IMG/VR virus record: IMGVR_UViG_3300027687_000035
Span: 1-35,862 of that record
Reading direction: 5' to 3' (one strand)
DNA: 35,862 nucleotides
Source: a virus
In this document: positions 1-27,664 of the stretch, piece after piece
Position numbering within the stretch: position 1 is the stretch's first letter
Layout of the letters: each line of letters opens with the position of its first letter
Position numbers and translations under genes: made by a program
The notes under the pieces: generated by a model
Seen by the model: the letters and a program-made list of their open reading frames with translations, nothing else
What the model was told of the DNA's origin: nothing
Databases searched by the model: none

Positions 1-243
1 ACAGCTATCACCATGATATCAGGAGATACTGAAGCTGGTAAAGCTGTACTAGAAACACTAGAAGCTAATGAAGATCTTCCCTACTTGTTGCAGAAATTAC
101 AGAAAGCTCCCCTATTGTTTACAGAAGCTGGTGTTGTCGGTGAAGGCATAGCTGAAGGTTTAGGTTTGTTGTTAAAGTATGCAAAGAACAGCCCTATGCT
201 TAAAAGCTTAAAAAGTGGTGTAAAATCTCAGTTTCAAAAAATA
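1..243 (+). repeat. Left flank of the duplicated allele cassette (copy 1)
   Basis: Matches 33292-33534 with an offset of 33291 and three mismatches (two adjacent at about 128-129, one at about 166). The match stops abruptly after CAAAAAATA, where the two gene versions become unrelated at the DNA level. It is either the overlap of a circular assembly or a real repeat. Confidence 0.95.
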
Positions 244-2238
244 GGTATAAATGCAAAAGAAACATTAGAGAATAATCAGGGAACTACAACTATATCTAGC
301 ATGGGTGCTGGTGAAATTGATAACTTCATTACAACGCAAATTGCTAAGTTTGCTCCTGACTATAAAAAAGAAATTAATAAAATAGCACTAGATAGAAATC
401 CCAATGTTAAGGATATTAATAAGCCTAAAATACTAGTTGAAGATATTCATAAATTTTATGATCAACTAGCTTTAAAAAAACATGGCAGAAAATTAACTCT
501 TTCTAATCCAAAAGATTATGAAATAATTAAAAATGAAAATATAACATCTATAAAAAACCAACTTAATAAAGAAGTTTCCGGTAAAGGTTGGTATGATGAA
601 GATGTTCTTAAAATGTTTAATATGTTGTCTAAGATGCCAGGTTTTGACAAACTAGGAAACAGCGAAACACAAAGAGTAATATACTCAGCAATACTTGGTG
701 CTACGTCACCTGGACCGAAAGTTGCACAAAATACTAAATCAGGATCAGCACAATATCTTAAATATTTAAGAACGGGCAAATTTAGTACTGAAGCACCTCC
801 TAAAGGAACATCAGTCGAAAATATAAATATGGCTGGTTTTGGTCAGTATGGTTATCCCGATGGTCTTAAAATGGTTCAATTTTTATTGGATAAATTTGGT
901 GAAGATGGGTTTGCTGATTTTATGCTGTCACCAATAACTAAAAAAGAATTAACTAAACTTAGATTAGAAGCTGGTTTTAAATCCGGTCCAACTGGTATGA
1001 GTGGTACTGGTGATAGTCAGCATTTAGGTGCAACTATACTTGGAGATAAGGCTGGTAAATTCATGCTTAATATTCAAGGTTATCCCACAACTACAAAAGA
1101 TAAATGGTTTGTAAGAACTATAAGAAGAAGTGAAGGTACCTTTGGCGATCACATGGTTAAGAAGATTGACAAGAATAAAGGTACTGAAAAAATGGTTGAG
1201 CTTGGACAACCTAAAAATCAAAGTGAAAGATTACTAATGGACCAGCTTGTTAAAGATATTGTTAATGATCCACAATTAAAAGATTTAAACTTGTCAGAAC
1301 AAGATGCACAAGCTATACTTTGGTTTCGAGAGCAGACCTTACAAAACGATTTAGGTGTGCCAACAAAACCGGAAACATTTTCTGAAGGAGTGGAGAAAGT
1401 AAGTGGACAAGAAGGATTTGGAATTCTCGCAAGCGATGCTGACAAAGTTGCGATTGAATCGGGAACAATTAAACCTGACGGATACAGAGAAATCAGTTCC
1501 CGACAGCGAACAGTTAGAAATGACAGAAGACTTCAGCAACTCAATAATTCGGGAAGCGATGGCGGATCATCCGGACCTTACGGAGGAGGAAGCCAAACAA
1601 ATGATGGAGGAGTTGGGAGCTTAACATTTGAGCCTAACCCTGAAGTTCTAGCTAAGTATAACAAAGCTGGATTAACCATACCTATAGTTAAACAAGTTGA
1701 TGCCAAAACATCATCTCAGTCTTACAGTACTGATATGGCTAATGCTGTATCTAAGCATACTTATGGTCTACAAGTAACAATTCAAAAACCTGAAGATCTT
1801 TTAGATTCAAAATTATTTAGAACTGAGCATGGTGGTGGTTTTGCCATAAAACCTGATGGTGATATCGTAGGTGTATTCCAAGCACCAAATGCCCCACCTA
1901 AAACAATATATGCAACATTACAATTAGCAATCCAGCAAGGCGGAAACAAGCTAGATGCATTTAATACAATGCTTCCAAAAATATATCAGACAGTAGGAAT
2001 GAAGCCGGTATCAAGGGTTAAATGGAGTGATGAGTTTGCACCTGAAGGATGGAGCAAGGAAACATTTGCTAAATATAATAATGGAGAGCCTGATCTAGTA
2101 TTATTTGTTTATGACAAAAATTATTTTGGTGGATCTAAAATAGATGATTTGCCAATCTTTGAAGGACCGAATGGATATGGTGAAGCTCAACTAATACAAG
2201 ATAAAGCTTTAAAAGAATTAGGAGCTAACGATGGTTAA
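1..2238 (+). CDS. Large ejected/internal virion protein, allele A (5' truncated by contig start)
   Basis: The reading frame is open through the left edge; the ATG at 13 is internal, because the same residues sit at about position 182 of the 1006-aa protein at 32758-35778. Residues 1-77 from that ATG are nearly identical to allele B, then the sequences part completely at base 243. The centre has a K346-F350-D363-R368 pattern like HhH-GPD DNA glycosylases. A Gly/Ser-rich linker (about 510-540) leads to a C-terminal domain about 75-80% identical to allele B, with a GNAT-like look (GDIVGVF strand, helix, YQTVGMKPVSRVKW). The stop overlaps the next gene (ATGGTTAA). Position after gp15-like and before another internal virion gene suggests a T7 gp16-like ejected protein. 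Function is inferred. Confidence 0.7.
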   Translation, partial: TAITMISGDTEAGKAVLETLEANEDLPYLLQKLQKAPLLFTEAGVVGEGIAEGLGLLLKYAKNSPMLKSLKSGVKSQFQKIGINAKETLENNQGTTTISSMGAGEIDNFITTQIAKFAPDYKKEINKIALDRNPNVKDINKPKILVEDIHKFYDQLALKKHGRKLTLSNPKDYEIIKNENITSIKNQLNKEVSGKGWYDEDVLKMFNMLSKMPGFDKLGNSETQRVIYSAILGATSPGPKVAQNTKSGSAQYLKYLRTGKFSTEAPPKGTSVENINMAGFGQYGYPDGLKMVQFLLDKFGEDGFADFMLSPITKKELTKLRLEAGFKSGPTGMSGTGDSQHLGATILGDKAGKFMLNIQGYPTTTKDKWFVRTIRRSEGTFGDHMVKKIDKNKGTEKMVELGQPKNQSERLLMDQLVKDIVNDPQLKDLNLSEQDAQAILWFREQTLQNDLGVPTKPETFSEGVEKVSGQEGFGILASDADKVAIESGTIKPDGYREISSRQRTVRNDRRLQQLNNSGSDGGSSGPYGGGSQTNDGGVGSLTFEPNPEVLAKYNKAGLTIPIVKQVDAKTSSQSYSTDMANAVSKHTYGLQVTIQKPEDLLDSKLFRTEHGGGFAIKPDGDIVGVFQAPNAPPKTIYATLQLAIQQGGNKLDAFNTMLPKIYQTVGMKPVSRVKWSDEFAPEGWSKETFAKYNNGEPDLVLFVYDKNYFGGSKIDDLPIFEGPNGYGEAQLIQDKALKELGANDG
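1403..1624 (+). CDS. Nested out-of-frame small gene, allele A copy
   Basis: This 73-aa frame lies +1 inside the allele A gene. It starts at GTG directly after an in-frame TAA and is preceded by AAGGAG and GGAG (the latter 7 nt upstream). Its C-terminal end (HPDLTxEEAxxMMxELGA) matches the nested frame of allele B at 34916-35173, in the same relative frame and ending at the same point. The main frame here encodes a Gly/Ser/Asn-rich linker. The product would be a charged, helical, soluble protein with no family I recognise. The conservation of a second frame across diverged alleles, plus the ribosome binding sites, argue for a true overlapping gene; expression is unproven. Confidence 0.6.
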   Translation: MDKKDLEFSQAMLTKLRLNREQLNLTDTEKSVPDSEQLEMTEDFSNSIIREAMADHPDLTEEEAKQMMEELGA

Positions 2239-2322
2239 CATACTTGGTAAAGGTGCAGAGATACTAAACAAGCTGGATTTAGCACAGCAAAAAATTCATA
2301 AAGAAACTAGACCTGATAATGA
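2204..2322 (+). repeat. Right flank of the duplicated allele cassette (copy 1)
   Basis: Identical over 119 bases to 35744-35862, the end of the window (offset 33540). It covers the last codons of the ejected-protein gene and the start of the 947-aa gene. An exact match ending at the contig end is what an assembly-graph overlap gives. Confidence 0.95.
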
Positions 2323-5074
2323 TGTTACTGTGCTTCCTGGTGGAGATCTTGCTGTAAAAGGTATGGATGATGAAGGTGTAAAAGCTTTAAATAAAATTTT
2401 GAGTGAAGAAGGATATAAAGGTCCTGGTTTAAATTTAAAAAGAATAAACTTACTATTCAAGCCTGGTGATGATGGTACTGAGGTGTTTGATCTTGAAACC
2501 ATGCTTGTAAATATAAAGTCTAATAACAAAGAACTCTTTGCTTTTTTAAGAAGACCAAAACAGACAATGGATGGAATGGTTGCCCTGGCTGAACAAACTG
2601 GGTTCTCTGAAATAGTCTATAAATTTTTAAATAGAAAACCTGGTAACATTATGCCAGCCGAAGAAACAATTGGTGGTTTAATAGCCATGCTTAAAATTGG
2701 GCAAGATTTAAATAAAAAAGCATTGGCTATAACTAAGTCTTCTGATGAAGGCGAGAAGCTACAAGCTTTTAGAGAATTAAAGATTTTAGCTACAATACAA
2801 ACAAATCTATCTGCACAAGTTTCCGGGAATGTATCTGAATATGGAAGAGGTTTAGCTGTTGTGTCTAACATAGCTAAATTAAATAATATTAATCTTTCTG
2901 AATACACAAATAGTATTACTGATTTTGTAGAAAACATGGATGAAGGAATGGTTGATTATCATGCCCATGCTTTTTTAAATCTTCAAAATCCTGGCAAAGC
3001 TCATTACACAGTAAGAGGGTTTATGGCTAGAGGTTATGATATAGCGATGGAAATATATATCAATGCCCTACTTTCATCAGGAGTTACTCATGTAGTTAAC
3101 ATGGCTGGTAATTCTATGTTTCAGGTTTCAAGCACTCTAGAAAGTGGACTTTCTGGATTAATTGGGGAAGTTAGAACCCTTGGTGGAAGACGAGGCAAAA
3201 TTGGTGATCGTGCTTATATGGGTGAGATGTCGGCTGAAGCTTATGGAGCAAGGATGGCATTAGGTGATGCTTTTAAATCGTCTGCCTTATCATTTGGTGT
3301 AACTGGATCTGCTGGTGACTTTGTATCTAAAATAGATTTAAAAAGACCTAAATCTATTGGCTCTACTGATAACCTTGCCCATATTATGGAAATGGGGGCT
3401 AAAGGTGATTTTGGGGCTATGCTTGTAAATATGATTGGTGTCACAACTAGGTTGCCTGGAAGATTTCTTGCATCAGAAGATGAATTTTTTAAGGTCATAT
3501 CTAAACGTAAAGTTCTTTATCGAGAAGCTTACAGATCACAAATGATAACTTATGAAACAGCTTTAAGGGGAGGTGTTCCCAAAGACCAAGCTAAAATCAT
3601 GGCACAAAAAAAATACACAGATATTATAATAAACCCACCTGAAGACATTGTAGAAAAGATGACAGCCGAAGCCAAAATTATGACGTTTCAAAATGATCCC
3701 CAAGGGGCATGGGCTACATTGGTTAATGTTGCAAACTTACCAGGTATGAAAACTATTGTTCCCTTTTCTAAAACACCAACTAATATTATTCAGCAAGTGT
3801 TTGATAGGACATTTAATTATTCACCAATTTATAAAGCTTTAAAACAGAATATGCCAAACAACAAACAAGGCATTGATCAAGGTGGTAGCAAACAATCAGG
3901 TCTTGAATTTGATAGAGCTATGTCTAAGTTAGTTATGGGCAATGGATTGTTCTTTGGTATGGTTATGCTTGCTGATGGTGCGTTTGGTGATAACATAGTT
4001 ATAAATGGATCAGGACCTACTGATTGGAAAGCCAGGAGATATATGAGGGGTTCAAATGTTCCACCTTATTCCATCGGAATTAAACAAGAAAATGGCGAAT
4101 ATAAATATATTACTTTTAGCCGTTTAGATCCTTTGTCGGGTATATTAGCGATGGCAAGTGATTTTTCCTATTATTCTAAGAATGAAGATGATTCAACTGT
4201 TATAGAAAATCTAGCTAAAGCCGGATCTTTAGCTATAGCTGAATACGCAATGAATTTACCATTTCTTCAAGGTGTATCAGAAATATTTAAAGCTGGTGGA
4301 AATCCATATGGTAATAAAGACGATCTTTTTAAAAGGTTGACTAAAACTTTATCGGGCATTGGTGGTGATATTGCAATGACAGTCACTAATGAAATAAACA
4401 CTTATCTTCCGGAACAGTTTGAACTTCCAGGTGCTAGTTCATTTACCAGGACCTTGGAAAGAGTTGGTAATCCTATGGCTAACAATACAATGCTCACAAC
4501 TGAACAAATTGATGATGCTAACAGCTTTTACTTTCCTGAAGTTATGAAGGGTTTTTATGAAGCTCTTAATAGAGCTAAGTCAGGCAATGCAAAATATAAC
4601 AATCAATTGGAACCAGCTTTAGACTTTTGGGGCAACATTAAAACTCAAGGCAATGGTAAAAATTACGAATATTTCAGCCCTATTAAAATTCAAAGTGGAG
4701 GCTATACATCCCTAGACAAAGAATTAATCAGGCTGTCTGAACGAGGTTTTGTCTTTCAATCACATAGAAAGAAATATAATGGGGTCCAACTATCTGACAA
4801 ACAATTTAATAGATACGTTACTATATTAAACAACTCCAATAGAGTTAATCAAAAATACAGCCTTACTATAGGTGATGGCGGATACGATGCCACAAGAGCT
4901 TTGTTACCATCTTTAAATAATACAATTAGTAGCGAAGCCTATAAATTAGAGGTTGATGACGAAGAAAAATATAACATGTTAAATGTGATATTAGGTGATG
5001 CAAGAAGTAGTGCAATGAATATTATGTTAAGTACTGATGATAGATTAAAGATATTGTCGAGTGAAAATAAATAG
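2231..5074 (+). CDS. Large internal virion / ejection-type protein
   Basis: A 947-aa protein between the gp16-like gene and the tail fibre, where short-tailed phages keep ejected internal proteins. AGGAG in the preceding gene's last codons lies 7 nt before the ATG, and the two genes overlap by 8 nt, so they are translationally coupled. No signal peptide or clear enzyme motif is visible. Long amphipathic or moderately hydrophobic stretches occur (around 272-310, with NALLSSGVTHVVNMAGN, and around 578-595, with MGNGLFFGMVMLADGAFGD), which would suit a protein that inserts in or crosses the envelope during ejection. I do not recognise a named family; the internal virion role is inferred from position and size. 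Confidence 0.6.
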   Translation: MVNILGKGAEILNKLDLAQQKIHKETRPDNDVTVLPGGDLAVKGMDDEGVKALNKILSEEGYKGPGLNLKRINLLFKPGDDGTEVFDLETMLVNIKSNNKELFAFLRRPKQTMDGMVALAEQTGFSEIVYKFLNRKPGNIMPAEETIGGLIAMLKIGQDLNKKALAITKSSDEGEKLQAFRELKILATIQTNLSAQVSGNVSEYGRGLAVVSNIAKLNNINLSEYTNSITDFVENMDEGMVDYHAHAFLNLQNPGKAHYTVRGFMARGYDIAMEIYINALLSSGVTHVVNMAGNSMFQVSSTLESGLSGLIGEVRTLGGRRGKIGDRAYMGEMSAEAYGARMALGDAFKSSALSFGVTGSAGDFVSKIDLKRPKSIGSTDNLAHIMEMGAKGDFGAMLVNMIGVTTRLPGRFLASEDEFFKVISKRKVLYREAYRSQMITYETALRGGVPKDQAKIMAQKKYTDIIINPPEDIVEKMTAEAKIMTFQNDPQGAWATLVNVANLPGMKTIVPFSKTPTNIIQQVFDRTFNYSPIYKALKQNMPNNKQGIDQGGSKQSGLEFDRAMSKLVMGNGLFFGMVMLADGAFGDNIVINGSGPTDWKARRYMRGSNVPPYSIGIKQENGEYKYITFSRLDPLSGILAMASDFSYYSKNEDDSTVIENLAKAGSLAIAEYAMNLPFLQGVSEIFKAGGNPYGNKDDLFKRLTKTLSGIGGDIAMTVTNEINTYLPEQFELPGASSFTRTLERVGNPMANNTMLTTEQIDDANSFYFPEVMKGFYEALNRAKSGNAKYNNQLEPALDFWGNIKTQGNGKNYEYFSPIKIQSGGYTSLDKELIRLSERGFVFQSHRKKYNGVQLSDKQFNRYVTILNNSNRVNQKYSLTIGDGGYDATRALLPSLNNTISSEAYKLEVDDEEKYNMLNVILGDARSSAMNIMLSTDDRLKILSSENK

Positions 5075-5101
5075 TGTATAAAACCTAGAGAGGTAATCTA
5101 G
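5054..5101 (+). promoter_or_regulatory. Promoter with ACCTAG box before the tail-fibre operon
   Basis: TTGTCG (5054-5059), a 17-base spacer and TATAAA (5077-5082) form a sigma70-like promoter. It is followed at once by ACCTAG (5083) and ATCTAG, so CTAGA (5085-5089) and TCTAG (5097-5101) can pair around a loop GAGGTAA that holds the Shine-Dalgarno of the fibre gene. Related boxes occur at 17633, 19747 and 26329. Promoter activity is inferred. Confidence 0.5.
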
Positions 5102-5102
5102 A

Positions 5103-6350
5103 ATGGCAACTTATAATGTAACGGCACAAACTAGAAGAGTTCAACATACCGGCAATGGAACAACCGGGAACTTTGCTTTTGCGTTTCAAATAAATGCTAC
5201 ATCACAATTAAAAGTCTATGTTGATAGTACCGAAAAAGAAGAAAGCACTCATTATGTTGTCACATTAAATTCAGGTACTGGTGCCGGTACTGTTGGTTTT
5301 ACTTCAGGCAACCACCCTACTAACTCTCAGACTGTTACTTTACTTTCAGATATTCCTTTTGCCAGGACATCAGTTTATACATCAGGTGGTCAGCTTACAT
5401 CAGCTAGTCTAGAAGATGACTTTGATACGAATATGTTTATTCATCAGCAGACTAATGAAGAGATTGATAGATCTTTAAGACTAGCCGAGCATGATACCAT
5501 ACCCGGTGCTAACATGACCTTGCCGGTAAAAGCTACCAGGTTAGGAAAGTTATTAGGTTTTAATGCTTCTACTGGTAATCCTGAAGCCACATTTACAATA
5601 ACCAATGGAAACACATTAGCAAGTCAATCAGCTAACATTGCTACGTTGGCTGGGATATCAAGTAACATCACAAGTGTTGCTGGGATATCAGCCTCTAATC
5701 TTTCAACTGTAGCTGGGGTTGCATCTAATGTGGCAACTGTAGCTGGCATTTCTAGTGCTGTTTCTACAGTAGCTTCTAATATAAGTAATATTAATTCGTC
5801 TAGTGCTAATGCTACAATTGCTCAAAACTATGCAACTAAAGTTGATGGTGTTGTTCCAAGCACTTCTGATTTTTCATCTAAAGCACAAGCTGTTGGTGGT
5901 ACTGGTGTAACTGGTGTAACTGGTTCAGCTAGAGAATGGGCAATTGGTGGTGGAACTAATCCTAATGCAACAGTTCATGTAGATAGTGCAGATGATTATT
6001 CAGCTAAAGGTTATGCAATAGGTGCTTTAGATAGAGGTTCAAATACTGGTAAACACTCTGCAAAAGATTGGGCAACTTATACTGCTGGTACAGTAGATGG
6101 ATCAGCTTATTCAGCTAAGTATTGGGCAACTCAATCGGCTTTATCTAAAACAGAATTTTCTAATATCTATCATGGTTCAGCTTCAAGTGATCCTAGTGGT
6201 GGAACTGTTAGTGCTGGAGATTTGTATTTTAATAGCAGTTCTAATGTACTTAAATTTTATACTGGCTCTGCATGGAACACAGTAGAAGCAACTGATACAT
6301 CAACTTTAGCATCAAAGGGATTCGCTACAGCAATGGCTGTGGCTTTATAG
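5103..6350 (+). CDS. Tail fibre protein with T7 gp17-type N-terminal domain
   Basis: 415 aa. Residues 1 to about 135 match the T7-type tail-fibre N-terminal domain that fixes the fibre to the tail: the VQHTGNGTTGNFAFAFQ start, the Y-V segment with TVTLLSDIPFARTS, and a DDFDTNMFIHQQTNEEIDRSLRLAE ending, which I know from this family. The middle has repeated hydrophobic/Ser-Ala units (TVAGISSNV-like, about 185-235), expected to form a trimeric shaft. The C-terminal part has AKDWA/AKYWA repeats and a GDLYFNSSSNVLKFYTGSAW segment common at fibre ends. It is first in a unit with its own promoter, and short downstream genes probably add or exchange tips. Confidence 0.85.
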   Translation: MATYNVTAQTRRVQHTGNGTTGNFAFAFQINATSQLKVYVDSTEKEESTHYVVTLNSGTGAGTVGFTSGNHPTNSQTVTLLSDIPFARTSVYTSGGQLTSASLEDDFDTNMFIHQQTNEEIDRSLRLAEHDTIPGANMTLPVKATRLGKLLGFNASTGNPEATFTITNGNTLASQSANIATLAGISSNITSVAGISASNLSTVAGVASNVATVAGISSAVSTVASNISNINSSSANATIAQNYATKVDGVVPSTSDFSSKAQAVGGTGVTGVTGSAREWAIGGGTNPNATVHVDSADDYSAKGYAIGALDRGSNTGKHSAKDWATYTAGTVDGSAYSAKYWATQSALSKTEFSNIYHGSASSDPSGGTVSAGDLYFNSSSNVLKFYTGSAWNTVEATDTSTLASKGFATAMAVAL

Positions 6351-6360
6351 GGAGTAAGAT

Positions 6361-7026
6361 ATGGCTCAAGATTTTGAAAGACTTTTTTTAACTGGAGTAG
6401 GAACAACTGCTCAAGACTTACCAGATGGTTCTGATTTTAATTCAGATGATACAATCATTGGGATTAACATGGCAAACACAAGTGTTAATGCTATAACAGC
6501 ATCATGTTTTATGACATCAAGTGTTCTTAGTTATGGTGCTGATTTTACATTTGTTGTTACTGTGGTCGGTGGTAATTTCTTAATAGATGGTCAGACCAAA
6601 CCACAACTTACGTTATACAAAGGTTTTACATATACATTTGATGTAAGCCATAGCAGTAATAGTGGTCATGTGTTACGATTTGCTACGCAAGCTGAAGGTG
6701 CTAATAGTTCTATTATTACTGCTGGTGTAACTGCAACTGGTACACCTTCACAAGCTAATGCAAAGGTTGTGATTACAACTTCATCAACAACAGCATCAAC
6801 CCTATATTATTATTGCACTCAACATAGTGGAATGGGTAACTCAATCACAGTTACAAACGTACATTACATAATAAAAGATGCACCTATACCTAGTGGATCA
6901 GCACTACAGTTACTAGATGGTGGAGCTAAGATGGTGGTGCAAAATAACGACAGAATGTTTTTTCAATCTAACACAGCATCTAGCTTAGATGTTTGGTTAT
7001 CAAGAGTTGATTCAATTAGCACATAA
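6361..7026 (+). CDS. Tail-associated structural protein with inserted cupredoxin-like domain
   Basis: 221 aa, 10 nt after the fibre gene. The ends (residues 1-55 and about 168-221, with VNAITASCFMTSS and APIPSGSALQLLDGGAK) form one beta-rich unit seen in tail or baseplate proteins of marine phages. Between them sits a plastocyanin-like domain: a TLYKGFTYTFDVS strand, then H103, and C152, H155 and M158 in YYCTQHSGMG, the spacing of type 1 copper ligands. All four ligands are present, so copper binding is plausible but not shown; such folds in phages could also serve only structure or glycan contact. The insertion architecture is read from the sequence; the tail role comes from neighbours. Confidence 0.65.
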   Translation: MAQDFERLFLTGVGTTAQDLPDGSDFNSDDTIIGINMANTSVNAITASCFMTSSVLSYGADFTFVVTVVGGNFLIDGQTKPQLTLYKGFTYTFDVSHSSNSGHVLRFATQAEGANSSIITAGVTATGTPSQANAKVVITTSSTTASTLYYYCTQHSGMGNSITVTNVHYIIKDAPIPSGSALQLLDGGAKMVVQNNDRMFFQSNTASSLDVWLSRVDSIST

Positions 7027-7036
7027 AGGTTTTTAA

Positions 7037-8152
7037 ATGGCATATATAGGAAACCAAGTAGACACATCATTCACAAGTCTTATCAAGCAAGATTTAACTG
7101 GTGCTTCTGGAACAAGCCTTACATTAACTCATGCAGTAGCTAATGCAAATGACATAGCATTATACATAAATAATGTTAGACAAGAACCGACCTCTGCATA
7201 TAGTACAAATGGTACAGCAGTTAGTCTTACTGGTAGTGTCGGAACATCAGATGATATTTATGTTTTGTATTTAGCAAGAGCAGTTCAAACAACTGTTCCT
7301 CCTGATGGAAGTGTAAGCACAGGTAAATTAGCAGATGGTTCTGTAACAACTGCAAAACTTCAAGCTGGTTTAACCAAAAATGCTATTGTTAATTCTTTTA
7401 CACCTACAACTTTAACTGGTTCAGCTACAGGGCAAACTATTGCTTTGTCAGGTCAATACATGGATTCAGCATCAACTGTTAAGCTTCGTAAAGTTTCTGA
7501 TAATAGTGATGTTGGAACTAATCTTTCACATACAAACGATCAAAGTGTAACTATAGCTACAACAAGTACGTTTGCAAGTGTAGCAACAAATTATAAACTT
7601 GTTTTTCAAAATCCAAATAGTAGTGAGTATATACATTCTACAATTATAACTATAGGTCTCCCTGATATAGTGCTATTTAATAGTGATGATTTTGGTGGAA
7701 GTGGCGATATTAGTTCTGTAACTGGTGGTTGGACTGTTAGTAGCTATAATCACAATTCAAGTGGAGAGGCAGGTGCAACTGCTGATAGAATTAAAACAAG
7801 AATTAATGGTACTGCTCAAACTGGGTATGGTATTGGTTACGGCATAAGAAGCACTAATAAAGTTGTTATACCAGCTGGGTACACAAAAATAGAAATTATT
7901 TACAGGTCTGTAACTAGTAATAATAACTTCTATCTTTCAGAAACAACTCTTGGAATGGCTCAGAATAATCGAACAAGTAGTGGTCATACTGATGGGTTAT
8001 CATCACATAATCCTACTGCTGGTACAAAGACAATTACAATAGATTCTACTATAGCAGATGGTACTGGGTATTATTTTTACTTTGCATCTTATGGTGGTCA
8101 ATATGCAAATGTAAACCAAGAAATCACAAAGATTAGAATTTATGCAGGATAG
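7037..8152 (+). CDS. Tail fibre/tip-like protein, YIG-type N-terminus
   Basis: 371 aa. The N-terminal about 110 residues (MAYIGN, LTLTHAVANANDIALYINNVRQ, then PPDGSVSTGKLADGSVTTAKL) form an attachment domain typical of marine phage fibre tips and are paralogous to the start of the protein at 8960. A middle Ig-like stretch (about 120-205) is followed by a Gly/Asn/Ser/Tyr-rich beta domain that probably contacts the receptor. There are no Cys residues, signal peptide or membrane segment. It lies in a same-strand array of five adhesin-like genes. The precise fold of the C-terminal half is unknown to me. Confidence 0.6.
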   Translation: MAYIGNQVDTSFTSLIKQDLTGASGTSLTLTHAVANANDIALYINNVRQEPTSAYSTNGTAVSLTGSVGTSDDIYVLYLARAVQTTVPPDGSVSTGKLADGSVTTAKLQAGLTKNAIVNSFTPTTLTGSATGQTIALSGQYMDSASTVKLRKVSDNSDVGTNLSHTNDQSVTIATTSTFASVATNYKLVFQNPNSSEYIHSTIITIGLPDIVLFNSDDFGGSGDISSVTGGWTVSSYNHNSSGEAGATADRIKTRINGTAQTGYGIGYGIRSTNKVVIPAGYTKIEIIYRSVTSNNNFYLSETTLGMAQNNRTSSGHTDGLSSHNPTAGTKTITIDSTIADGTGYYFYFASYGGQYANVNQEITKIRIYAG

Positions 8153-8161
8153 GAGCATAGA

Positions 8162-8668
8162 ATGGCATTAAGTAAAATTCAAGCTGAGTCAATGAACCTA
8201 GCAGACACATATGCTTTTAGTGGAACTGTAAGTGGTACTAGTGTGGCAGGAAGTTCTGCATTTATGGCTAGAAATGATTCTACTAGTTGGGCTACAGCAT
8301 CAGATAATGGAATCTTAGCTTTTAATAATGATTCTACTGAGGACAGTTTTGACACAGATAGTTGTTACAACACATCAACTTATAAATTTACAGCACCTGC
8401 AAATGGTGTTTATATGTTTAACTATTCTGTATATACGGCTAATGCTGATACTAGTAATGCTTTTTCTTTTCTTAAAAACTCAGCAAAAGTTGCTTCACAA
8501 CATAATAATGGAGAATATTTTTCTTATGATCAAGGAAATCAAGACCACACTCAAACTTCGTCACTTATTATCAATTTAGCAAGTGGAGACACTATAGCAG
8601 TTTGTTCTTCAAGCACTTCAGATTATCATGTAGGACATAGTCATTGGGGAGGTTGCCGATTGGCATAG
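8162..8668 (+). CDS. C1q/TNF-like fibre tip protein
   Basis: 168 aa. It starts MALSKIQAESMN, a short attachment peptide shared with the gene at 9859 (MALTKLNSASV). From about residue 30 it has the look of a C1q/TNF-like jelly roll: FMARNDSTSW, ILAFNNDSTEDSFDTDSCYN, YKFTAPANGVYMFNYSVY, then SSLIINLASGDTIAV and the final GCRLA. Such domains trimerise and bind receptors at phage fibre tips. The leader TAGGAGCATAGAATGGCATTAA is almost the same as that of the gene at 9859, pointing to duplication. Confidence 0.65.
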   Translation: MALSKIQAESMNLADTYAFSGTVSGTSVAGSSAFMARNDSTSWATASDNGILAFNNDSTEDSFDTDSCYNTSTYKFTAPANGVYMFNYSVYTANADTSNAFSFLKNSAKVASQHNNGEYFSYDQGNQDHTQTSSLIINLASGDTIAVCSSSTSDYHVGHSHWGGCRLA

Positions 8669-8677
8669 GAAAATATT

Positions 8678-8953
8678 ATGAATTATTTAGAATTAAAAAG
8701 ATGGGATAACGAACACAGTTCTGTCTGGAAAGAAATAGTTTCTAGGTTTGGTCAGTCAGATTATGATGATGAAGCTAAAAGAACTAAACATATGGCTACT
8801 CTAAAAGCAGAATGGGAAGCTAAGAAATACCAAAGAGATAGAGCAATAGAATATCCTGCAATAGCAGACCAACTAGATGACATCTACCACAATGGTGTAG
8901 TTGCTTGGAAAGCAACAATCAAAACAATTAAAGATAAATATCCAAAGGAGTAA
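8678..8953 (+). CDS. Small charged protein in the tail-fibre cluster
   Basis: 91 aa, strongly charged and mostly helical. The C-terminal half reads YPAIADQLDDIYHNGVVAWK and ends in DKYPKE, a signature I have seen in short proteins or domains next to tail-fibre genes in many phages. No enzyme motif, signal peptide or membrane segment. By position it may help fibre folding or assembly; that is inference. Confidence 0.5.
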   Translation: MNYLELKRWDNEHSSVWKEIVSRFGQSDYDDEAKRTKHMATLKAEWEAKKYQRDRAIEYPAIADQLDDIYHNGVVAWKATIKTIKDKYPKE

Positions 8954-8959
8954 TAAGCC

Positions 8960-9847
8960 ATGCCATACATAGGAAGCGAACCTAGTAGTGGGTTATTCCA
9001 AGAGTTAGATGCACTTACAGCTAGTGCCACAGATGACTATACATTAAAACTAAATGGTGCTGATTACTTTCCAGAAACAGTTAACAATCTATTAGTATCA
9101 ATTAATGGTGTGATCCAAGGTGGATCGACTATGTCTTTAAATGGTGCAGTTCTTACTGTTGGAGCTACGTTATCTAGTTCAGATACGATTGATTTTGTAC
9201 GAGTGTTTGGCAATGTTGGTACTGTGTCTACACCGACTGATGGTAGTGTGACTGCTAACAAGATTGGAACTGGTGCAGTAAATTTAACTAGCAAAGTAAG
9301 TGGAGTTCTTCCAATAGCTAATGGTGGTACTGGTGCAACAAGCTATGTTGAAACTAATAGTGTAATAGAAACTTGGTATTACAATGACGATAACACTACT
9401 CAACATAATAATACTGACTTACTGTTTGCTGGATACACACGATTAACAACTAATAATACTGCAAATAAGAATGGTGGTATGTCTCATGCTTCTTCAGCGG
9501 GAACAAATGGTACTGGTATTTGGACATTTCCTTCTACTGGTATTTGGAGAATAGAGTTAGTTTTAAACTTTTATCATAGTGGTGGAGCATCTGGAGCAAG
9601 TGGTGTTAGAATGGAAGTAACAACAGATAATAATACTTATAATGATGTTACTGGTATACGAGATCATGGATATGCAACAAATGCTAATGTAGGTATCACA
9701 CTACCATATACTCTAAATGTTAATAATGTATCAAATGTAAAGTTTAGGCATAAACTAAGTTTAAATAATACTGTAATTGTAAGAGGTGGTACTAGTGACA
9801 TTTATGGTACAAAAATACATTTCATCAAACTTTGTCCGTCAGTATAG
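8960..9847 (+). CDS. Fibre tip protein with YIG-type N-terminus and C1q-like end
   Basis: 295 aa. The N-terminal 110 residues (MPYIGSEPSSG, LLVSINGVIQGG, DTIDFVRVFG, TPTDGSVTANKI) are paralogous to the protein at 7037. A linker VLPIANGGTGATSY, a classic tail-fibre hinge motif, leads to a beta-rich C-terminal domain (about 130-295) with IWTFPSTGIWRIELVLNFYH, similar to C1q-like tips. Together with the following gene it repeats the two-gene pattern of 7037 plus 8162. Confidence 0.65.
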   Translation: MPYIGSEPSSGLFQELDALTASATDDYTLKLNGADYFPETVNNLLVSINGVIQGGSTMSLNGAVLTVGATLSSSDTIDFVRVFGNVGTVSTPTDGSVTANKIGTGAVNLTSKVSGVLPIANGGTGATSYVETNSVIETWYYNDDNTTQHNNTDLLFAGYTRLTTNNTANKNGGMSHASSAGTNGTGIWTFPSTGIWRIELVLNFYHSGGASGASGVRMEVTTDNNTYNDVTGIRDHGYATNANVGITLPYTLNVNNVSNVKFRHKLSLNNTVIVRGGTSDIYGTKIHFIKLCPSV

Positions 9848-9858
9848 GAGCATAGAGA

Positions 9859-10392
9859 ATGGCATTAACCAAACTAAATTCAGCAAGCGTGATTGATAGG
9901 CTTCCAGTAGGTAGTGTGTTGCAGACTAAAACAGCAAAGGTAACTGCTCCTGAAGATTGGACAGCACAAAACGTAATGTGTGGACCGACTGCTACTATAA
10001 CTCCAACAAGCACATCTAGTAAAATTTTAATATTAGTACAAGCAACTTTTTCTTATAGCAGTACTAGTGTTACTGGTTCAGTAGGTTTAAGGTTTGCTAC
10101 TGGAACATCTGTAGCTAATACAGATACAATAGTTAGCGGTGGAGATTCGGCAGGATCAAGACAAAGAGCTATTGGTTGGAATGGGCAAGCAAGTGCAAAT
10201 TGGCAAGGCACTAATATAGGTTACAACACAATACATGATCCTCAAACAACTTCTCAGATTTCATATAGACTATGTGCAATGGGAGATGACAGTAGTGGAA
10301 CATCATATTTAGGAAGAACTGGTAGAGACACAGATAATGCTCAGCACCCTAGAATAGATACAAACATAACTCTCATGGAGATCAAAGGCTAA
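9859..10392 (+). CDS. Fibre tip-like protein, MAL-type N-terminus
   Basis: 177 aa starting MALTKLNSASVIDRLPVGSVLQ, then a beta-rich domain with SSKILILVQATFSYSSTS and SYRLCAMGD and a final RIDTNITLMEIKG. That ending (TNITLMEI) is typical of marine phage fibre-tip domains. Its ribosome binding leader matches that of the gene at 8162. Its stop codon overlaps the next start (TAATG), coupling the fibre cluster to the lysis cassette. Confidence 0.55.
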   Translation: MALTKLNSASVIDRLPVGSVLQTKTAKVTAPEDWTAQNVMCGPTATITPTSTSSKILILVQATFSYSSTSVTGSVGLRFATGTSVANTDTIVSGGDSAGSRQRAIGWNGQASANWQGTNIGYNTIHDPQTTSQISYRLCAMGDDSSGTSYLGRTGRDTDNAQHPRIDTNITLMEIKG

Positions 10393-10553
10393 TGGTCAAA
10401 GCATCTGAAGTAAAAGCACAAATTGATACTCATGAAGCAGTTTGTTCTGAGAGATGGAAAGAGACTATACTACGCATCAAACGTATTGAACATATTATGA
10501 TAGGAACTTCAGGCACAGCTATTGTGTTACTCATAGGTTTGCTAGTGAGGTAG
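10392..10553 (+). CDS. XhlA-like small membrane protein of the lysis cassette
   Basis: 53 aa. Start overlaps the previous stop in TAATG. The N-terminal about 30 residues are soluble and charged (ERWKETILRIKRIE), and residues about 34-52 form one membrane segment (IMIGTSGTAIVLLIGLLV) with a final Arg. This order of amphipathic helix plus C-terminal anchor is that of XhlA/hemolysin-type proteins, which act beside holins. It heads the lysis genes. The family assignment rests on architecture. Confidence 0.6.
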   Translation: MVKASEVKAQIDTHEAVCSERWKETILRIKRIEHIMIGTSGTAIVLLIGLLVR

Positions 10554-10556
10554 TCC

Positions 10557-11027
10557 ATGCTTGAGATACTTTTAGTAGCTAATTCTGCTTTTAAAATAAT
10601 TAAAGAAACACTAGAAAATGGTAAGGAAATAAGTAGTTGTGGATCAGCGATTGCCAATTTTATAGGGGCTGAAGACAAACTTAAACAAGATTTATACAAA
10701 AAAAAGAATAGTCTTTGGACTAATTTCTTAGGCAAGACCGACAATGATTTAGAAGAATTTATGGCTCTTGAATCTATACGAGTTAAGCAAGAAAAATTGA
10801 GGGAGTATATGCAACTTTTTGGGAGAGCCAACCTCTACACAGACTATATACAATTTTGTGCTGATTGCCGAGTATCCCGAAAAGAAGCACGAGTGAAAGC
10901 CCAGAAACGCAGACAGTATATACAAGATATGTTTCTCAAAATTGTATTAGGCATACTCATTACAGCATTATTTACTGGAGTAGCAACTGTCCTTTTTATA
11001 TTAGCCAAGAAGAAAGGTTTGATATGA
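10557..11027 (+). CDS. Membrane-anchored phage protein in lysis cassette
   Basis: 156 aa. A soluble, mostly helical and highly charged part (residues 1 to about 130; with SLWTNFLGKTDNDLEEFMALE, RKEARVKAQKRR) is followed by one membrane segment at about 131-150 (IVLGILITALFTGVATVLFI) and a short KKKGLI tail, so the body would face the cytoplasm under the positive-inside rule. The end overlaps the next start (ATGA). I have seen similar proteins near holin genes in marine phages but know no function; a role in lysis is inferred from neighbours. Confidence 0.5.
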   Translation: MLEILLVANSAFKIIKETLENGKEISSCGSAIANFIGAEDKLKQDLYKKKNSLWTNFLGKTDNDLEEFMALESIRVKQEKLREYMQLFGRANLYTDYIQFCADCRVSRKEARVKAQKRRQYIQDMFLKIVLGILITALFTGVATVLFILAKKKGLI

Positions 11028-11224
11028 CAGCTTTCCTTTTAATTTGCACGTTAAATGGTGCAGTTAGCGAAGGCGGTATTTATTTTCAAAATGTAAATGA
11101 TTGTATGAGTTTCAAAAACACATTGACCAATCAATCTTATATTAAAAAAGACAAGCCACAAGTTTACCAATGTATGTGTAAATTAATACCGACAGTCGAT
11201 CCTAAGAAAGTACAAATCTATTAA
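11024..11224 (+). CDS. Small Cys-containing protein with hydrophobic N-terminus
   Basis: 66 aa starting at the ATG that overlaps the previous TGA; the frame is open further upstream, but this start is coupled. The N-terminus MTAFLLICTLNG is hydrophobic and could be a short signal or anchor. Four Cys follow the pattern C8, C29 and CMC at 53-55. It could be exported, given the cysteines, but this is uncertain. No family recognised beyond resemblance to small proteins next to phage lysis genes. Confidence 0.45.
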   Translation: MTAFLLICTLNGAVSEGGIYFQNVNDCMSFKNTLTNQSYIKKDKPQVYQCMCKLIPTVDPKKVQIY

Positions 11225-11235
11225 GGAGAATTAAT

Positions 11236-11628
11236 ATGTTATCTGCAATCATAGGACCCATAGCTTCACTAGCTAGTAATTGGATGAACAGTAAAGTAGA
11301 AAAAGTTAAAGCTGATGGGCAAGCTAAAGTTGCTCAAGCTAAAGCCAAAGCTGTAGTTGCTGAGAAGGTTGCTTCCGGAGAAGTTGCCTGGGAAAAATCG
11401 ATGGCTGATGCTACTGATGGATCTTATAAAGACGAGTTTGCTTTAGGTGTACTGCTTGCTCCCGCCATTTTAGTCTTCATACCCAGCATGACAGAACATG
11501 TAAGAAAAGGTTTTGAAGTTTTAAACACTCTCCCGGATTGGTATCAGTACCTTTTATTTATAGCTGTTAGTAGTTCGTTTGGAATTAAGGGTGTTGGTCA
11601 AGCTATGAAAATGATTGGAAAAAAATGA
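11236..11628 (+). CDS. Holin of the GTA 3TM type
   Basis: 130 aa with AAGGAG 8 nt before the ATG. It has the layout of the 3TM holin family first described for gene transfer agent release: a hydrophobic N-terminus (LSAIIGPIASLASNWM), an Ala/Lys-rich amphipathic helix (VKADGQAKVAQAKAKAVVAE), then two hydrophobic segments (ALGVLLAPAILVFIP and YQYLLFIAVSSSFGIKGVG). It would make the membrane holes that let the soluble lysozyme at 11961 reach the cell wall. Its last codons overlap the next start (ATGA). Confidence 0.75.
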   Translation: MLSAIIGPIASLASNWMNSKVEKVKADGQAKVAQAKAKAVVAEKVASGEVAWEKSMADATDGSYKDEFALGVLLAPAILVFIPSMTEHVRKGFEVLNTLPDWYQYLLFIAVSSSFGIKGVGQAMKMIGKK

Positions 11629-11726
11629 TTTGGTTTTGGTTAAGTCTATCAAAATTTTTTAATAGAATTGGTAACCGGTTTTATTACAAACATGTCTACG
11701 AACTAAGAAGGAAACAAAAACGATGA
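11625..11726 (+). CDS. Microprotein 1 of a related pair
   Basis: 33 aa, starting in ATGA overlap with the holin and ending in ATGA overlap with the next gene. Begins MIWFWLSLSKFF and ends ELRRKQKR, so a short aromatic/hydrophobic head and a strongly basic tail. It aligns loosely with the 33-aa product of the next gene (F-x-N-x-F-x-x-KH then basic residues). It could be a membrane-surface peptide acting with the holin; the function is unknown. Exact coupling on both sides supports its reality. Confidence 0.4.
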   Translation: MIWFWLSLSKFFNRIGNRFYYKHVYELRRKQKR

Positions 11727-11824
11727 CAAAATTTTATATGAAAATGTACGATCTGTTTACGTCTTTAGCTAATTATTTTTGGCACAAACATATTAACTCA
11801 ATGAAAAACCGAAGGAGAAACTAA
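11723..11824 (+). CDS. Microprotein 2 of a related pair
   Basis: 33 aa, coupled by ATGA upstream and TAATG downstream. MTKFYMKMYDLFTSLANYFW is followed by HKH and ends KNRRRN. Same length, aromatic head and basic tail as the preceding microprotein, so the two may be an ancient duplication. AAGGAG in its last codons is the Shine-Dalgarno of the following gene. Confidence 0.4.
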   Translation: MTKFYMKMYDLFTSLANYFWHKHINSMKNRRRN

Positions 11825-11964
11825 TGGCAAAACCAGGACTTTACGCAAATATTTTAGCTCGAAAAAAGAAAGGCATTTCACGCACTAAAAAAAATTCAAC
11901 CATAAGCAGTAAAGCCTATGCGAATATGAAAGCTGGTTTTATAAAGAAGAAGAAAAAAACATGA
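11824..11964 (+). CDS. Small basic phage protein (MAKPGLYAN type)
   Basis: 46 aa, extremely Lys-rich, beginning MAKPGLYANILARKKKG and containing STISSKAYANMKAGF. This is a widespread short protein in marine and T4-like phages, usually near tail, head or lysis genes, with no known function. Starts in TAATG overlap, preceded by AAGGAG, and ends in ATGA overlap with the lysozyme. Confidence 0.6.
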   Translation: MAKPGLYANILARKKKGISRTKKNSTISSKAYANMKAGFIKKKKKT

Positions 11965-12401
11965 ACATTGATAAGCTTCGAGAAGATCTCAAAGAAGATG
12001 AAGGATGTAAGTACGAAATTTACTTAGATCATTTAGGTCTGCCAACGCACGGGATAGGTCACCTTGTCACCGAATGGGATGAGGAATACGATCTGCCGGT
12101 TGGCACAGCCGTATCTCCTGACAGAGTAAACCAATGTTTCCAGGCGGATGTTTATGGTACCATCGATGAATGTAAAATTTTATTTGAAGACTTTGATGAG
12201 TTGCCGGAAGAAGTGCAATTGATAATTGGAAACCTTATGTTTAATATGGGCAGACCTCGTTTATCTAAATTTGTTTTGTTTCGGAAAGCTGTAAAAGATC
12301 GTGATTGGATTGAATGTGGTTACCAATTAAAAAACTCTCGCTACTACACACAAGTAACAGCAAGAGCCGATAGATTAATTGCAAGGTTGCAAGCTATATA
12401 A
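11961..12401 (+). CDS. Endolysin, T4-type lysozyme (glycoside hydrolase family 24)
   Basis: 146 aa. It would hydrolyse the beta-1,4 bond between N-acetylmuramic acid and N-acetylglucosamine. The T4 lysozyme catalytic triad Glu/Asp/Thr is visible as E14 (EDEG), D23 (YLD) and T29 (PTHGIGH); the family core continues with IIGNLMFNMG and ends with ARADRLIARL. There is no signal peptide, so release depends on the holin upstream. The last 8 bases overlap the convergent LexA-like gene on the other strand. Confidence 0.9.
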   Translation: MNIDKLREDLKEDEGCKYEIYLDHLGLPTHGIGHLVTEWDEEYDLPVGTAVSPDRVNQCFQADVYGTIDECKILFEDFDELPEEVQLIIGNLMFNMGRPRLSKFVLFRKAVKDRDWIECGYQLKNSRYYTQVTARADRLIARLQAI

Positions 12402-12621
12402 GTTCTATAGCTCTATTGCCTCCATACTTTCCTTCTTTAAATCTTTTAATATGCCCTTTCTTATCCAGGCTATTGACATAATGGAAAGCTGAACTAGTTG
12501 ATTTCATATTTAATGATTCACAAATCTCCATGTATGTTGGCATATACTCATGCTCTATATAAAAAGATTTTATAAATTTTAAAACATTTAATTGTTTAGG
12601 AGTTAATGGCATCTTTGACAT
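12394..12621 (-). CDS. LexA-type winged-helix DNA-binding protein without protease domain
   Basis: 75 aa from the ATG at 12621, chosen because GGGGAG lies 8 nt upstream; a TTG one codon earlier is less likely. The sequence matches the LexA N-terminal winged helix: LTPKQLNVLKFIKSFYIEH, MPTYMEICESLNMKS as the recognition helix-turn-helix, and a wing. The S24-type autoprotease domain of LexA or cI is absent, so it would not self-cleave on DNA damage. It is the last gene of the leftward operon, and overlaps recT by 26 nt. It may repress phage or host SOS-like promoters; the targets are unknown. Confidence 0.7.
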   Translation of the reverse strand: MSKMPLTPKQLNVLKFIKSFYIEHEYMPTYMEICESLNMKSTSSAFHYVNSLDKKGHIKRFKEGKYGGNRAIELI

Positions 12622-13501
12622 CAAACAATCTCCCCTCTTCCATTTCTATTTCTTCTATTAAACCAAAGTCACTATTTCTAAGCTGTTCTAACATCTCCAT
12701 GTTTTTAGTTTTAAGCTCAGAATATTTTTGCCTTTTAATTTCAGCGGTCCACATTTTACTTCTGTCCACTATCTGCATGATTTCAATGTACTTTAAAACA
12801 AAGTCATTTTTATTATTTAATTTTACTGGATCTTTGCCTGGTGTATTGATCATCCATGCAAGCTCGATTTCAGACTCGTCAGGAGCCGTAAGCTCTCCAA
12901 CTATATCATCAATGCTTCGAGCATCCTTATCAAACTTAGAGGTCTTCTCTAGCTCTTGTACAGCACCTTTAGGCACCGGATAGTCTTCAGCTTCTTCTCC
13001 AGTAATTAATCCACCGATAACATCAGCAAACGCATCACGCAAAGCAAAGCCCCTAGCCCTCATTTGAAGCATTCGATCAGGATAGGATTTCCAAGGTGGT
13101 CTATTTAATAAATTAGCACTTTGTGCCTGACCCATAGAAAAGCTGGAACTAATAACTTCTGTTTCTCCATTAGGGGCTAACCTGGATACTACGCAAGTTG
13201 CTGTTCTAGCTTTGCCTTCACCATCAATTGTTTCTTTAACTGATAAACACCTTCTATCATTGCGAACCATAGCCAGTAAAGCATCGCCCCATATTGATGG
13301 CTTACCATTTATAACAGCTATGTTCTGCATTGCCTGGAAAGGTGCCAGCCCAAGGGAAGCTCCAGCCGACACAGCCAAAAAGATATTAGCTGGTTTATTT
13401 TTATAACTATCAGGCACAAGGTCAGACTTAGAAAACATTTCTGAGATCCTCATAGCCTGATCAATGTTAGTTGGTATTAAATTAGTTTTAAAACTATTCA
13501 T
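12596..13501 (-). CDS. recT: RecT family single-strand annealing recombinase
   Basis: 301 aa. It resembles RecT/Bet-like annealases: NIFLAVSAGASLGLAPFQAM, NIAVINGKPSIWGDALLAM, SYPDRMLQMRARGFALRDAF and DVIGGLITGEEAED are hallmark segments of the conserved core (about 30-170). The C-terminal third is variable and acidic. It would anneal the 3' single strand made by the exonuclease encoded just upstream, with which it overlaps (TAATG at 13501). Together with SSB at 20261, these give a phage recombination set for repair, concatemer formation and gene exchange. Confidence 0.88.
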   Translation of the reverse strand: MNSFKTNLIPTNIDQAMRISEMFSKSDLVPDSYKNKPANIFLAVSAGASLGLAPFQAMQNIAVINGKPSIWGDALLAMVRNDRRCLSVKETIDGEGKARTATCVVSRLAPNGETEVISSSFSMGQAQSANLLNRPPWKSYPDRMLQMRARGFALRDAFADVIGGLITGEEAEDYPVPKGAVQELEKTSKFDKDARSIDDIVGELTAPDESEIELAWMINTPGKDPVKLNNKNDFVLKYIEIMQIVDRSKMWTAEIKRQKYSELKTKNMEMLEQLRNSDFGLIEEIEMEEGRLFDVKDAINS

Positions 13502-14424
13502 TATTTATTCTCCTCAATTGAAAATCGTCTATGTTCGGTTGATGGTTTAGCTGGCACTATTTTTTCCGGTGTCGCTTTACGTTTAATGATTGGGAAAGAA
13601 ATTTTATATTCACCAATGGTTGCATACTCGGCATCAACCTCATCAAGCACTAGCTCCAAGGCTTCCTGGCATTGTTCTTTTTTTAATTTCCAGGCTTTTT
13701 CTTCAGCTTTGCATTGATTGTAATCGGTTATAATTTGTATAACGTCATCTCTAGTTTCCATTGAATCTAATGAAATGCTGTCCGGCTTGCCATTATCAAT
13801 TGGTGGGTAAGGAAGATCCCTATCAACCCTATCCCAAAATTCAGCAACCTTTTCTATTATGATGCCTACAAGCTTTTCACTTAGCCTATATGGAAAAAGG
13901 GTAAATTTTAATTTTGGTCCAAGTTTAGCAATAACTCCCCATTTAAAACCGGCACATAACATCTGAGTTTGTAACTGAATCACCTGGTCGGCTCTTGGCG
14001 GTCCATCATCCCAGCCATCAGTTTTTATTTCTAATGCACCAAAGCCTGATACACTTATGTCATCACCTTGAGGATTAGGAATAGTAAGTTCTCCGCCTAC
14101 CACTTCTAATATACCATCAAGAGAAGCACACAGCCTCATTTCTTTTATACGATGGGCATCAATTGGCGGAGTGTAATTACAAACCACATTATCCGGGCAT
14201 AGATTATCTAACTTGTCACTTGCCCATTCAGTTAAGGTTGGTTCTAGATAGTTACCTCTATCTTTAGCATCCTGGTAAAGACCATCATCAATAGATTGAA
14301 CACCAGCTTTAGCATTTAAAACGATTTGCCTGACGGCTTCGTTAGTTTGGAAAGGTGTTTCACCCATTACGATAGCCCCTACTTTAGAAGCTCCTAATTC
14401 GTCTGCATCATTAGACCACTTCAT
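13501..14424 (-). CDS. YqaJ / lambda-Exo family exonuclease
   Basis: 307 aa. The PD-(D/E)XK core of YqaJ-like viral recombinases is visible: GNYLEP (about 57-62), SLDGIL with the catalytic Asp (about 103), ALEIKT (E and K of the E-x-K motif, about 131-135) and the Q-rich helix DQVIQLQTQM that follows. It would degrade one strand of duplex ends to expose 3' tails for RecT. The C-terminal part (from about 230) is Lys/Glu-rich. Start in ATGA overlap with the small membrane gene upstream, stop in TAATG overlap with recT. Confidence 0.85.
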   Translation of the reverse strand: MKWSNDADELGASKVGAIVMGETPFQTNEAVRQIVLNAKAGVQSIDDGLYQDAKDRGNYLEPTLTEWASDKLDNLCPDNVVCNYTPPIDAHRIKEMRLCASLDGILEVVGGELTIPNPQGDDISVSGFGALEIKTDGWDDGPPRADQVIQLQTQMLCAGFKWGVIAKLGPKLKFTLFPYRLSEKLVGIIIEKVAEFWDRVDRDLPYPPIDNGKPDSISLDSMETRDDVIQIITDYNQCKAEEKAWKLKKEQCQEALELVLDEVDAEYATIGEYKISFPIIKRKATPEKIVPAKPSTEHRRFSIEENK

Positions 14425-14669
14425 AGCTTCACTCCATAGTTAAGGGCAAAGCAAGCATCGTCTATAAGGCATACCATATGTAGTGTGTAGTAGATTGTAG
14501 CCAATGCCATAAAGGTGAGTAAAGCATAACCAAATAGCTTAGTTAGCATTATAAGAGCTAGAGGGGTGATAGCAAAAAGCCGAGTCGCTGGGTCTGACTT
14601 AGTATATATTATGCGACAAACACTATAATTTAAAAAAAGGTCTTCCCTAACGTGTTGATATAACTTCAT
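14421..14669 (-). CDS. Small predicted membrane protein
   Basis: 82 aa from the ATG at 14669, preferred over 14684 because GGAG lies 9 nt before it. One or two membrane segments are evident (about 32-66, including FAITPLALIMLTKLFGYALL and TFMALATIYYTLHMVCLI), followed by a short tail with two Cys. No family recognised. In other phages small membrane proteins sit next to recombination genes and serve exclusion or nuclease control; nothing here shows which. Confidence 0.5.
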   Translation of the reverse strand: MKLYQHVREDLFLNYSVCRIIYTKSDPATRLFAITPLALIMLTKLFGYALLTFMALATIYYTLHMVCLIDDACFALNYGVKL

Positions 14670-14790
14670 ATTTATTTTCTCCATTATTTATTTTTAATGT
14701 GCAAGCTCTAGACGGGTCAGGCAGAATGCATACCATATCTAGTTTTGCGATCTTTAAGTCATTGATAGTTGGTTGTAAAAAATAGGTCAT
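14647..14790 (-). CDS. Hypothetical 47-aa protein, translationally coupled
   Basis: Starts at the ATG in ATGA overlap with the stop of the 175-aa gene upstream and ends 23 nt inside the membrane-protein gene. It fills what would otherwise be the only gap in this part of the leftward operon. Sequence MTYFLQPTINDLKIAKLDMV then two Cys; no family recognised. The coupled start and filled gap are the only support. Confidence 0.4.
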   Translation of the reverse strand: MTYFLQPTINDLKIAKLDMVCILPDPSRACTLKINNGENKYEVISTR

Positions 14791-15314: not shown

Positions 15315-15405
15315 TAATCTTCTCCTCTCTATCTATCTTTCTTCGTAAGATGTTCTATAGCTAAACACAAAAAAAAACATCTAACAATGCATACTAGTTT
15401 GATAC

Positions 15406-16634: not shown

Positions 16635-16936
16635 TAGTTTGCTCCCTTTATAAATTGTATGTCACCACCAGGATATTGGACCATGACATATAGAGATCCA
16701 CATTTCATAGCTACATCTGTGCAGATATCTGTGAACTCGCTTTGCTCATTATCTTCTAAAGCCACCTCGATCTTTTCACATGGAAGACCATCTAAATGAC
16801 CTTTCCATATGCCGGTCACCGGATAATGTGTACATCCACCAAATTGCATATAAAATGCCTCAATGGTTTTACTGAGCAGATTTTTCATACTGCCCAGCTT
16901 AGTTTCATGTGGAATGATTATGAAGGCTAGTTTCAT
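16634..16936 (-). CDS. Hypothetical protein of the leftward operon
   Basis: 100 aa from the ATG at 16936 (the longer frame to 16975 is less likely), which overlaps the preceding stop (TAATG) and is led by GGGAG 9 nt upstream. Begins MKLAFIIIPHETKLGS; compact alpha/beta look, four Cys, no membrane segment and no known family. Ends in KGAN, as does the gene before it, because the stop region doubles as the next gene's ribosome binding site. Confidence 0.5.
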   Translation of the reverse strand: MKLAFIIIPHETKLGSMKNLLSKTIEAFYMQFGGCTHYPVTGIWKGHLDGLPCEKIEVALEDNEQSEFTDICTDVAMKCGSLYVMVQYPGGDIQFIKGAN

Positions 16937-23398: not shown

Positions 23399-23440
23399 GG
23401 TCGCATCCTAGAAATCCTAGAAAAGTAGAGGACAACGAAA

Positions 23441-27369: not shown

Positions 27370-27371
27370 TC

Positions 27372-27653: not shown

Positions 27654-27664
27654 TAACTAAAATT

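Follow-up and report, generated by a model that had tools for sequence, protein, structure and literature searches.

Alternative cassettes in a putative ejectosome gene of a marine podovirus, with a predicted DNA glycosylase-like module and a candidate +1-frame nested gene

The two ends of the window, by which we mean the whole 35,862-base stretch of DNA analysed, a metagenomic virus contig, carry alternative versions of one gene in the putative internal-core operon of a T7-like marine podovirus. We consider it probable that a phage backbone that closes on itself was opened by the assembler at a bubble within this gene, that the gene encodes an ejectosome protein with a swappable effector module, that a second gene is nested in it and that its versions are exchanged by recombination in the conserved flanks. 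The more specific proposition, that a marine podovirus ejectosome protein carries swappable glycosylase-like effectors, with alleles coexisting in one species and a conserved out-of-frame gene that recombines in register, is advanced tentatively, at somewhat less than even confidence.

The gene order is that of a podovirus: TerL, portal, major capsid protein, tail tubular A/B-like proteins, a gp14-like protein, a 619-aa protein in the gp15 position, the variable gene, a gp16-like protein and the tail fibre. The variable gene, all of its parts described below and its two immediate neighbours lie on the forward strand of the window. The gp14-like gene (30360–30899) matched the internal virion protein family phrog_418. 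It is followed by the 619-aa gene (30899–32758), which had no PHROG match and forms the constant flank directly 5′ of the variable gene. Directly 3′ of the variable gene, the other constant flank is a 947-aa gene resembling gp16/internal virion protein D (2231–5074), which matched the internal virion protein family phrog_6651 (E = 1e-15) and whose phage matches carry the annotation internal virion protein D. The variable gene itself begins with a constant N-terminal domain of 259 aa (32758–33534), which was 64–83% identical over six loci with differing cassettes (alignment A2).

Comparison of the window with itself confirmed that positions 1–243 repeat 33292–33534 with three mismatches only (at 128, 129 and 165), as originally predicted, and that 2204–2322 repeat 35744–35862 exactly over 119 bases, with a mismatch at 2203/35743. 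Chance was ruled out for the 243-base repeat (BLAST E = 1e-119). Besides both end repeats, self-BLAST returned an 80% DNA match between 1532–2322 and 35081–35862 and one unrelated 27-base repeat. The left constant flank thus has a copy on allele A with three linked SNPs (1–243), and the right constant flank has a copy on allele B (35744–35862). Between the repeats lie the allele A cassette of 1,960 bases (244–2203) and the allele B cassette of 2,209 bases (33535–35743). An ORF check bore out that both stretches are open and in frame with the same neighbours; they lie in the frame of one and the same gene, which with allele B encodes 1,006 aa (32758–35778). For allele A, the window contains the C-terminal 745 aa of the gene product, which is complete, at 923 aa, in locus L004; complete allele A genes are also found in L019/L047 (100% identity) and L012 (81% at the protein level). 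The claim that the two versions are unrelated at first and related in their last domain also held: homology between the middle parts could not be detected even when profile was compared with profile (hhalign probability, 0.7%), whereas the last domains shared 75.6% protein identity. At 33535–33553, allele B is without the linker (GTNAQ..LSSMGGGEID..; about 30 aa) that separates the N-terminal domain from the module in allele A and in the nearest other B genes; its absence is possibly a recombination scar.

Two further contigs supported the original prediction that the cassettes are alleles that replace each other on a single backbone, which closes into a circle, and not a tandem duplication. 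Contig G001 (locus L004; sample 3300031626; 22,984 bases) ran from window positions 28402–33534 straight into 1–18095 at 99.98% identity, with a single complete allele A gene between the same genes. Contig G010 (locus L019; sample 3300027791; 12,554 bases) covered 23068–33534 and then 1–2330, ending exactly 127 bases beyond the point, 2203/2204, at which A and B diverge. The window itself begins with exactly 127 matching bases before the first mismatch. These exact 127-base shared ends fit a branch of a de Bruijn graph with k=127, presumably the value used by the assembler, and such an assembly bubble does not require a tandem copy. The right-hand overlap of the window is 119 bases, not 127, and trimming of the end is the only explanation that we can offer. 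The shared ends imply that the second version was present in two of the samples and little represented in the third, and the assembly signatures suggest that A and B coexisted within one sample. The three SNPs accompanied allele A in all three contigs. An exact search returned no other conspecific contigs, and allele B on this exact backbone was seen in the window only.

A duplicated gene pair present in every genome and cut by the contig ends would account for one contig holding both copies. However, G001 has the same backbone with a lone allele A gene between the flanks, which contradicts a tandem arrangement for sample 3300031626; each relative carries exactly one version, and the exact 127-base overlaps match a graph bubble. 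We therefore reject tandem duplication on the evidence of G001 and G010 and regard it as highly improbable. It is also improbable, if somewhat less so, that one allele is an assembly chimera whose sequence belongs to a different phage species of the same sample. Allele B is nearest to modules of other species (95.8% protein identity to L020, 91.5% to L006), occurs on this backbone in the window alone and is without the linker of its closest relatives, all of which speaks for a chimera. Yet 243 matching bases precede the left divergence and 119 exact ones follow at the right, B-carrying relatives are clearly different in those flanks (about 75–88% identity), and both the main frame and the nested gene described below remain open. 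Moreover, the B flank differs from the A flank at the three SNPs and is therefore not a simple copy of it. Site-specific switches of phages are exemplified by the Mu G-segment and tail-fibre shufflons, and the window does encode a small serine recombinase of 248 aa (15888–16634; phrog_125, DNA invertase). Nevertheless, neither an inverted copy nor a silent cassette was present on either strand of the window, no invertible segment for the recombinase was seen there, and the alleles differ by whole replacement and are also present in other species; we therefore reject an invertible or shufflon-type switch, and variation generated by any phage-encoded switch, invertase or DGR-type, is extremely improbable. 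The 27-base near-identical direct repeat (16632–16658 and 16934–16960) lies at the starts of the serine recombinase gene and a neighbouring gene and may be merely repeated gene-junction sequence.

The original prediction had proposed a search for additional versions within these flanks, and related phages do carry them: at least five module types (A–E) occupy the slot. Among the relatives, module B was carried by L005, L006, L010, L016 and L014, module A by L012, a third type (C) by L007 and L011, a fourth (D, DUF7178) by L009 and a fifth (E) by L013. In two further cases different cassettes occupied nearly one backbone: the flanks of L016 (B) and L013 (E) were 96–97% identical, and those of L006 (B) and of L007 and L011 (C) were 90–94% identical. 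Unrelated sequence flanked by near-identical sequence in related phages is the pattern of a metaviromic island. The allele B module was 86.9–87.7% identical at the DNA level in L005, L006 and L010 and 94% in L020, with flanks that were 74–80% identical or unalignable; in L020 and L038 the module was 94–95% identical at the DNA level, the matching flanks were 80–83% identical and the N-terminal domain was unrelated. In L027–L036 module identity fell to 66–76% and the remaining locus was mostly unalignable. Cassettes have been replaced between conserved flanks, and modules have moved between species. The genome contigs searched contained no bacterial or prophage copies of module B, and isolated phages contained none. 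Module C (L007, L011, 3543–6008), which occupies the same slot, had no Pfam or PHROG match.

Three lines of evidence, each weak alone, agree in pointing to an HhH-GPD (Endonuclease III/Ogg-like) domain in module B (33553–34985). The AlphaFold2 model of the module had a pLDDT of mostly 80–94 over residues 11–300, and the top four PDB matches in Foldseek, well apart from the rest, were Deinococcus Endonuclease III structures (probability 0.92–0.99, E = 0.03–0.05). When the module B profile was searched against PDB sequences at E values up to 10, the sole match was 3fhf, an N-glycosylase/DNA lyase (E = 0.89), with GIDNKVVSF...VMDR of module B aligned to GIGYKEASH...IIDR. In this alignment the proposed catalytic lysine and aspartate, Lys267 (codon 34333–34335) and Asp285 (34387–34389), are paired with residues of 3fhf; they are 18 residues apart and invariant in alignment A5. 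The catalytic pair of Endonuclease III, Lys120 and Asp138, has the same spacing of 18 residues. Module B is thus very probably a glycosylase/lyase-like domain that has kept the Lys/Asp pair, and it may be enzymatically active and act on DNA. It had no match to PF00730 (HhH-GPD) at E values up to 10. An unlikely alternative is that the modules are structural or nucleic-acid-binding ejectosome parts without enzyme activity and that their variation reflects differences in host envelopes or receptors. In its favour, the modules are encoded amid core genes, mosaicism of ejection proteins has been described (PMC8954989) and metaviromic islands include internal virion proteins (PMC3909814). Against this, the Lys/Asp pair and the surrounding motifs were invariant over nine module B homologues, some of which are 58–59% identical, as would be expected of an active site.

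Module A (361–1500), with homologues in 43 viral loci, is likely to be a DUF7178-like domain. The window's own module did not match the Pfam family PF23802 (DUF7178), and one of the 28 module A homologues, a divergent member, did so (2e-4); comparison of the module A profile with the modules of L009, which is DUF7178, and L013 gave a probability of 75% (E = 2.5e-5). Modules A and D would accordingly both be DUF7178-like by sequence comparison. A search of the literature library for DUF7178 found no paper. Module A retains a GDK...KD motif that is reminiscent of HhH-GPD, which is suggestive only; a direct comparison of modules A and B detected no homology between them. The profile of module A gave chance-level matches only to PDB sequences, and the structure model of the A cassette was poor (pLDDT, 47.7). 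A PDB fold search with this model gave only a weak acetyltransferase match (E = 0.63), on which we place no reliance. In L061, L068, L075 and L087, module A lies within far larger fused genes, with more than 1,300 residues after the module, which recall giant virion proteins.

The module is followed by a C-terminal domain in both alleles (1627–2238 in A; 35185–35778 in B, where it is phrog_2563-like), and this domain is absent from some B genes (L014, L015, L027–L036). The phrog_2563 domain also forms the C-terminus of MuF-type minor capsid proteins encoded beside portal genes, as in Microbacterium phage UtzChips gene 4 and Methanobrevibacter virus vir075. In Limnohabitans phage DC33, one gene of about 9.4 kb contains module A and then a phrog_2563 C-terminal domain. 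A short PDB sequence match of the domain to FtsE (E = 0.008) was judged spurious.

Each A or B cassette very probably carries a second gene, nested in the +1 frame, of 73 aa in allele A (1403–1624) and 85 aa in allele B (34916–35173, with AAGGAG 5′ of its ATG). In both cassettes the nested ORF runs from close to the module's end to the start of the C-terminal domain. All B-module loci examined that span the region have it, as do 27 of 28 module A loci, in which it shows a matching motif; a GGAG-like site typically lies 5′ of it. Identity at synonymous codons of the main frame was raised in the overlap, being 0.78 for B (vs 0.57 upstream and 0.68 downstream) and 0.86 for A (vs 0.56 and 0.62), and the nested protein was better conserved than the main-frame protein that it overlaps (0.442 vs 0.358; 318 of 351 pairs from 27 loci). 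When synonymous codons were shuffled, the probability that the nested frame stayed open was 0.001–0.5 at each locus; multiplied over 12 divergent representatives, it comes to about 1e-17 on the assumption of independence, which related sequences do not fully satisfy. Frame +2 was never open in this comparison. The N-terminal half of the nested protein tracks the module, A or B, and its C-terminal half tracks the C-terminal domain; exchanges have therefore kept the two frames aligned with each other. Searches of PHROG and Pfam gave no credible family for the nested protein, which is possibly a partner, a regulator or an immunity-like protein of the effector.

To account for these observations, we propose that a self-closing phage backbone of about 33.4 kb was opened at a two-allele bubble inside a gene of the ejectosome (internal-core) operon, between the gp15-position and gp16-like genes. 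The constant N-terminal domain probably takes the protein into the virion and then into the cell; we infer delivery into the host because the gene sits between the gp14/gp15-position and gp16-like core genes. The replaceable module, which would be the effector, comes next (type A or B in this phage; type C, D or E in related ones) and is followed by the optional C-terminal domain common to MuF-type head proteins. Homologous recombination within the conserved flanks would swap the versions, and the phage's own RecT-like annealing protein and RecE-like exonuclease (12596–14424, reverse strand; phrog_561, E = 4e-45, and phrog_434, E = 1e-26), a possible engine of allele exchange, may assist in it. 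Once ejected, the module probably targets nucleic acid or a defence in the new host; since it would act on host-side targets, alternative versions may suit different hosts. Diversifying selection by host factors, suggested in the original prediction, is a plausible driver of the cassette diversity.

Marine phage islands with alternative content within populations are known, from the description of metaviromic islands, which include internal virion proteins among their genes (Mizuno 2014, PMC3909814), to Warwick-Dugdale 2019 (PMC6487183) and the HVR of Polarivirus skadi (PMC10504331). As in metaviromic islands, near-identical backbones here have unrelated content over a stretch of a few kilobases. 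Unlike in those reports, both alleles are fully read, they are in-frame modules of one gene, near-identical copies link the modules to other species, and a fold is predicted. Polyvalent proteins (Iyer 2017, PMC5512222) are likewise large and multidomain, occur in virion-gene context, are probably injected and have domains that are reshuffled between elements. The variable gene encodes a multidomain protein among virion and packaging genes, but its variation is allelic inside one phage species. No catalogued polyvalent domain (MPTase, ART, ParB, LPD and others) was matched in Pfam, the sole link being a BFVD structural match annotated as LPD-containing; glycosylase domains do not appear in the text of PMC5512222. 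MuF polymorphic toxins (Jamet 2017, PMC5576092) similarly combine a constant virion-delivery N-terminus with exchangeable C-terminal modules, and the variable gene shares a C-terminal module with MuF-type proteins (UtzChips gene 4, vir075). Here, by contrast, the carrier is a putative podovirus ejectosome gene, and Pfam found no MuF domain in it. As the defining domains were not found, we class the protein neither as a polyvalent protein nor as a MuF toxin; these two groups are its nearest conceptual relatives. Module B has the predicted fold and the Lys..Asp spacing of the bifunctional glycosylase/AP lyases among HhH-GPD glycosylases (Endonuclease III, MjaOgg) but, unlike them, is too divergent for PF00730 and is embedded in a phage virion-operon protein. 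Gene order and position agree with gp14/gp15/gp16 of T7-like phages, in which the swapping of an enzymatic domain from one ejection protein to another is known for the gp16 lysozyme (PMC8954989); unlike in T7, an extra gene with a nucleic-acid-enzyme-like module lies after the gene in the gp15 position and before the gp16-like one. That virion-core genes vary in the manner of islands is already known; the identity of the module and the nested gene appear to be new.

These results give molecular content to a poorly explained finding, namely that hypervariable islands of abundant marine phages contain virion-core genes: here the variable part resembles an enzyme module that acts on DNA and can be exchanged. 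The nested gene is conserved in dozens of divergent marine phages and is a clear candidate for a missed gene with an assayable product. Should module B prove to be an active glycosylase/lyase that enters the host at infection, it would represent a new strategy of early infection.
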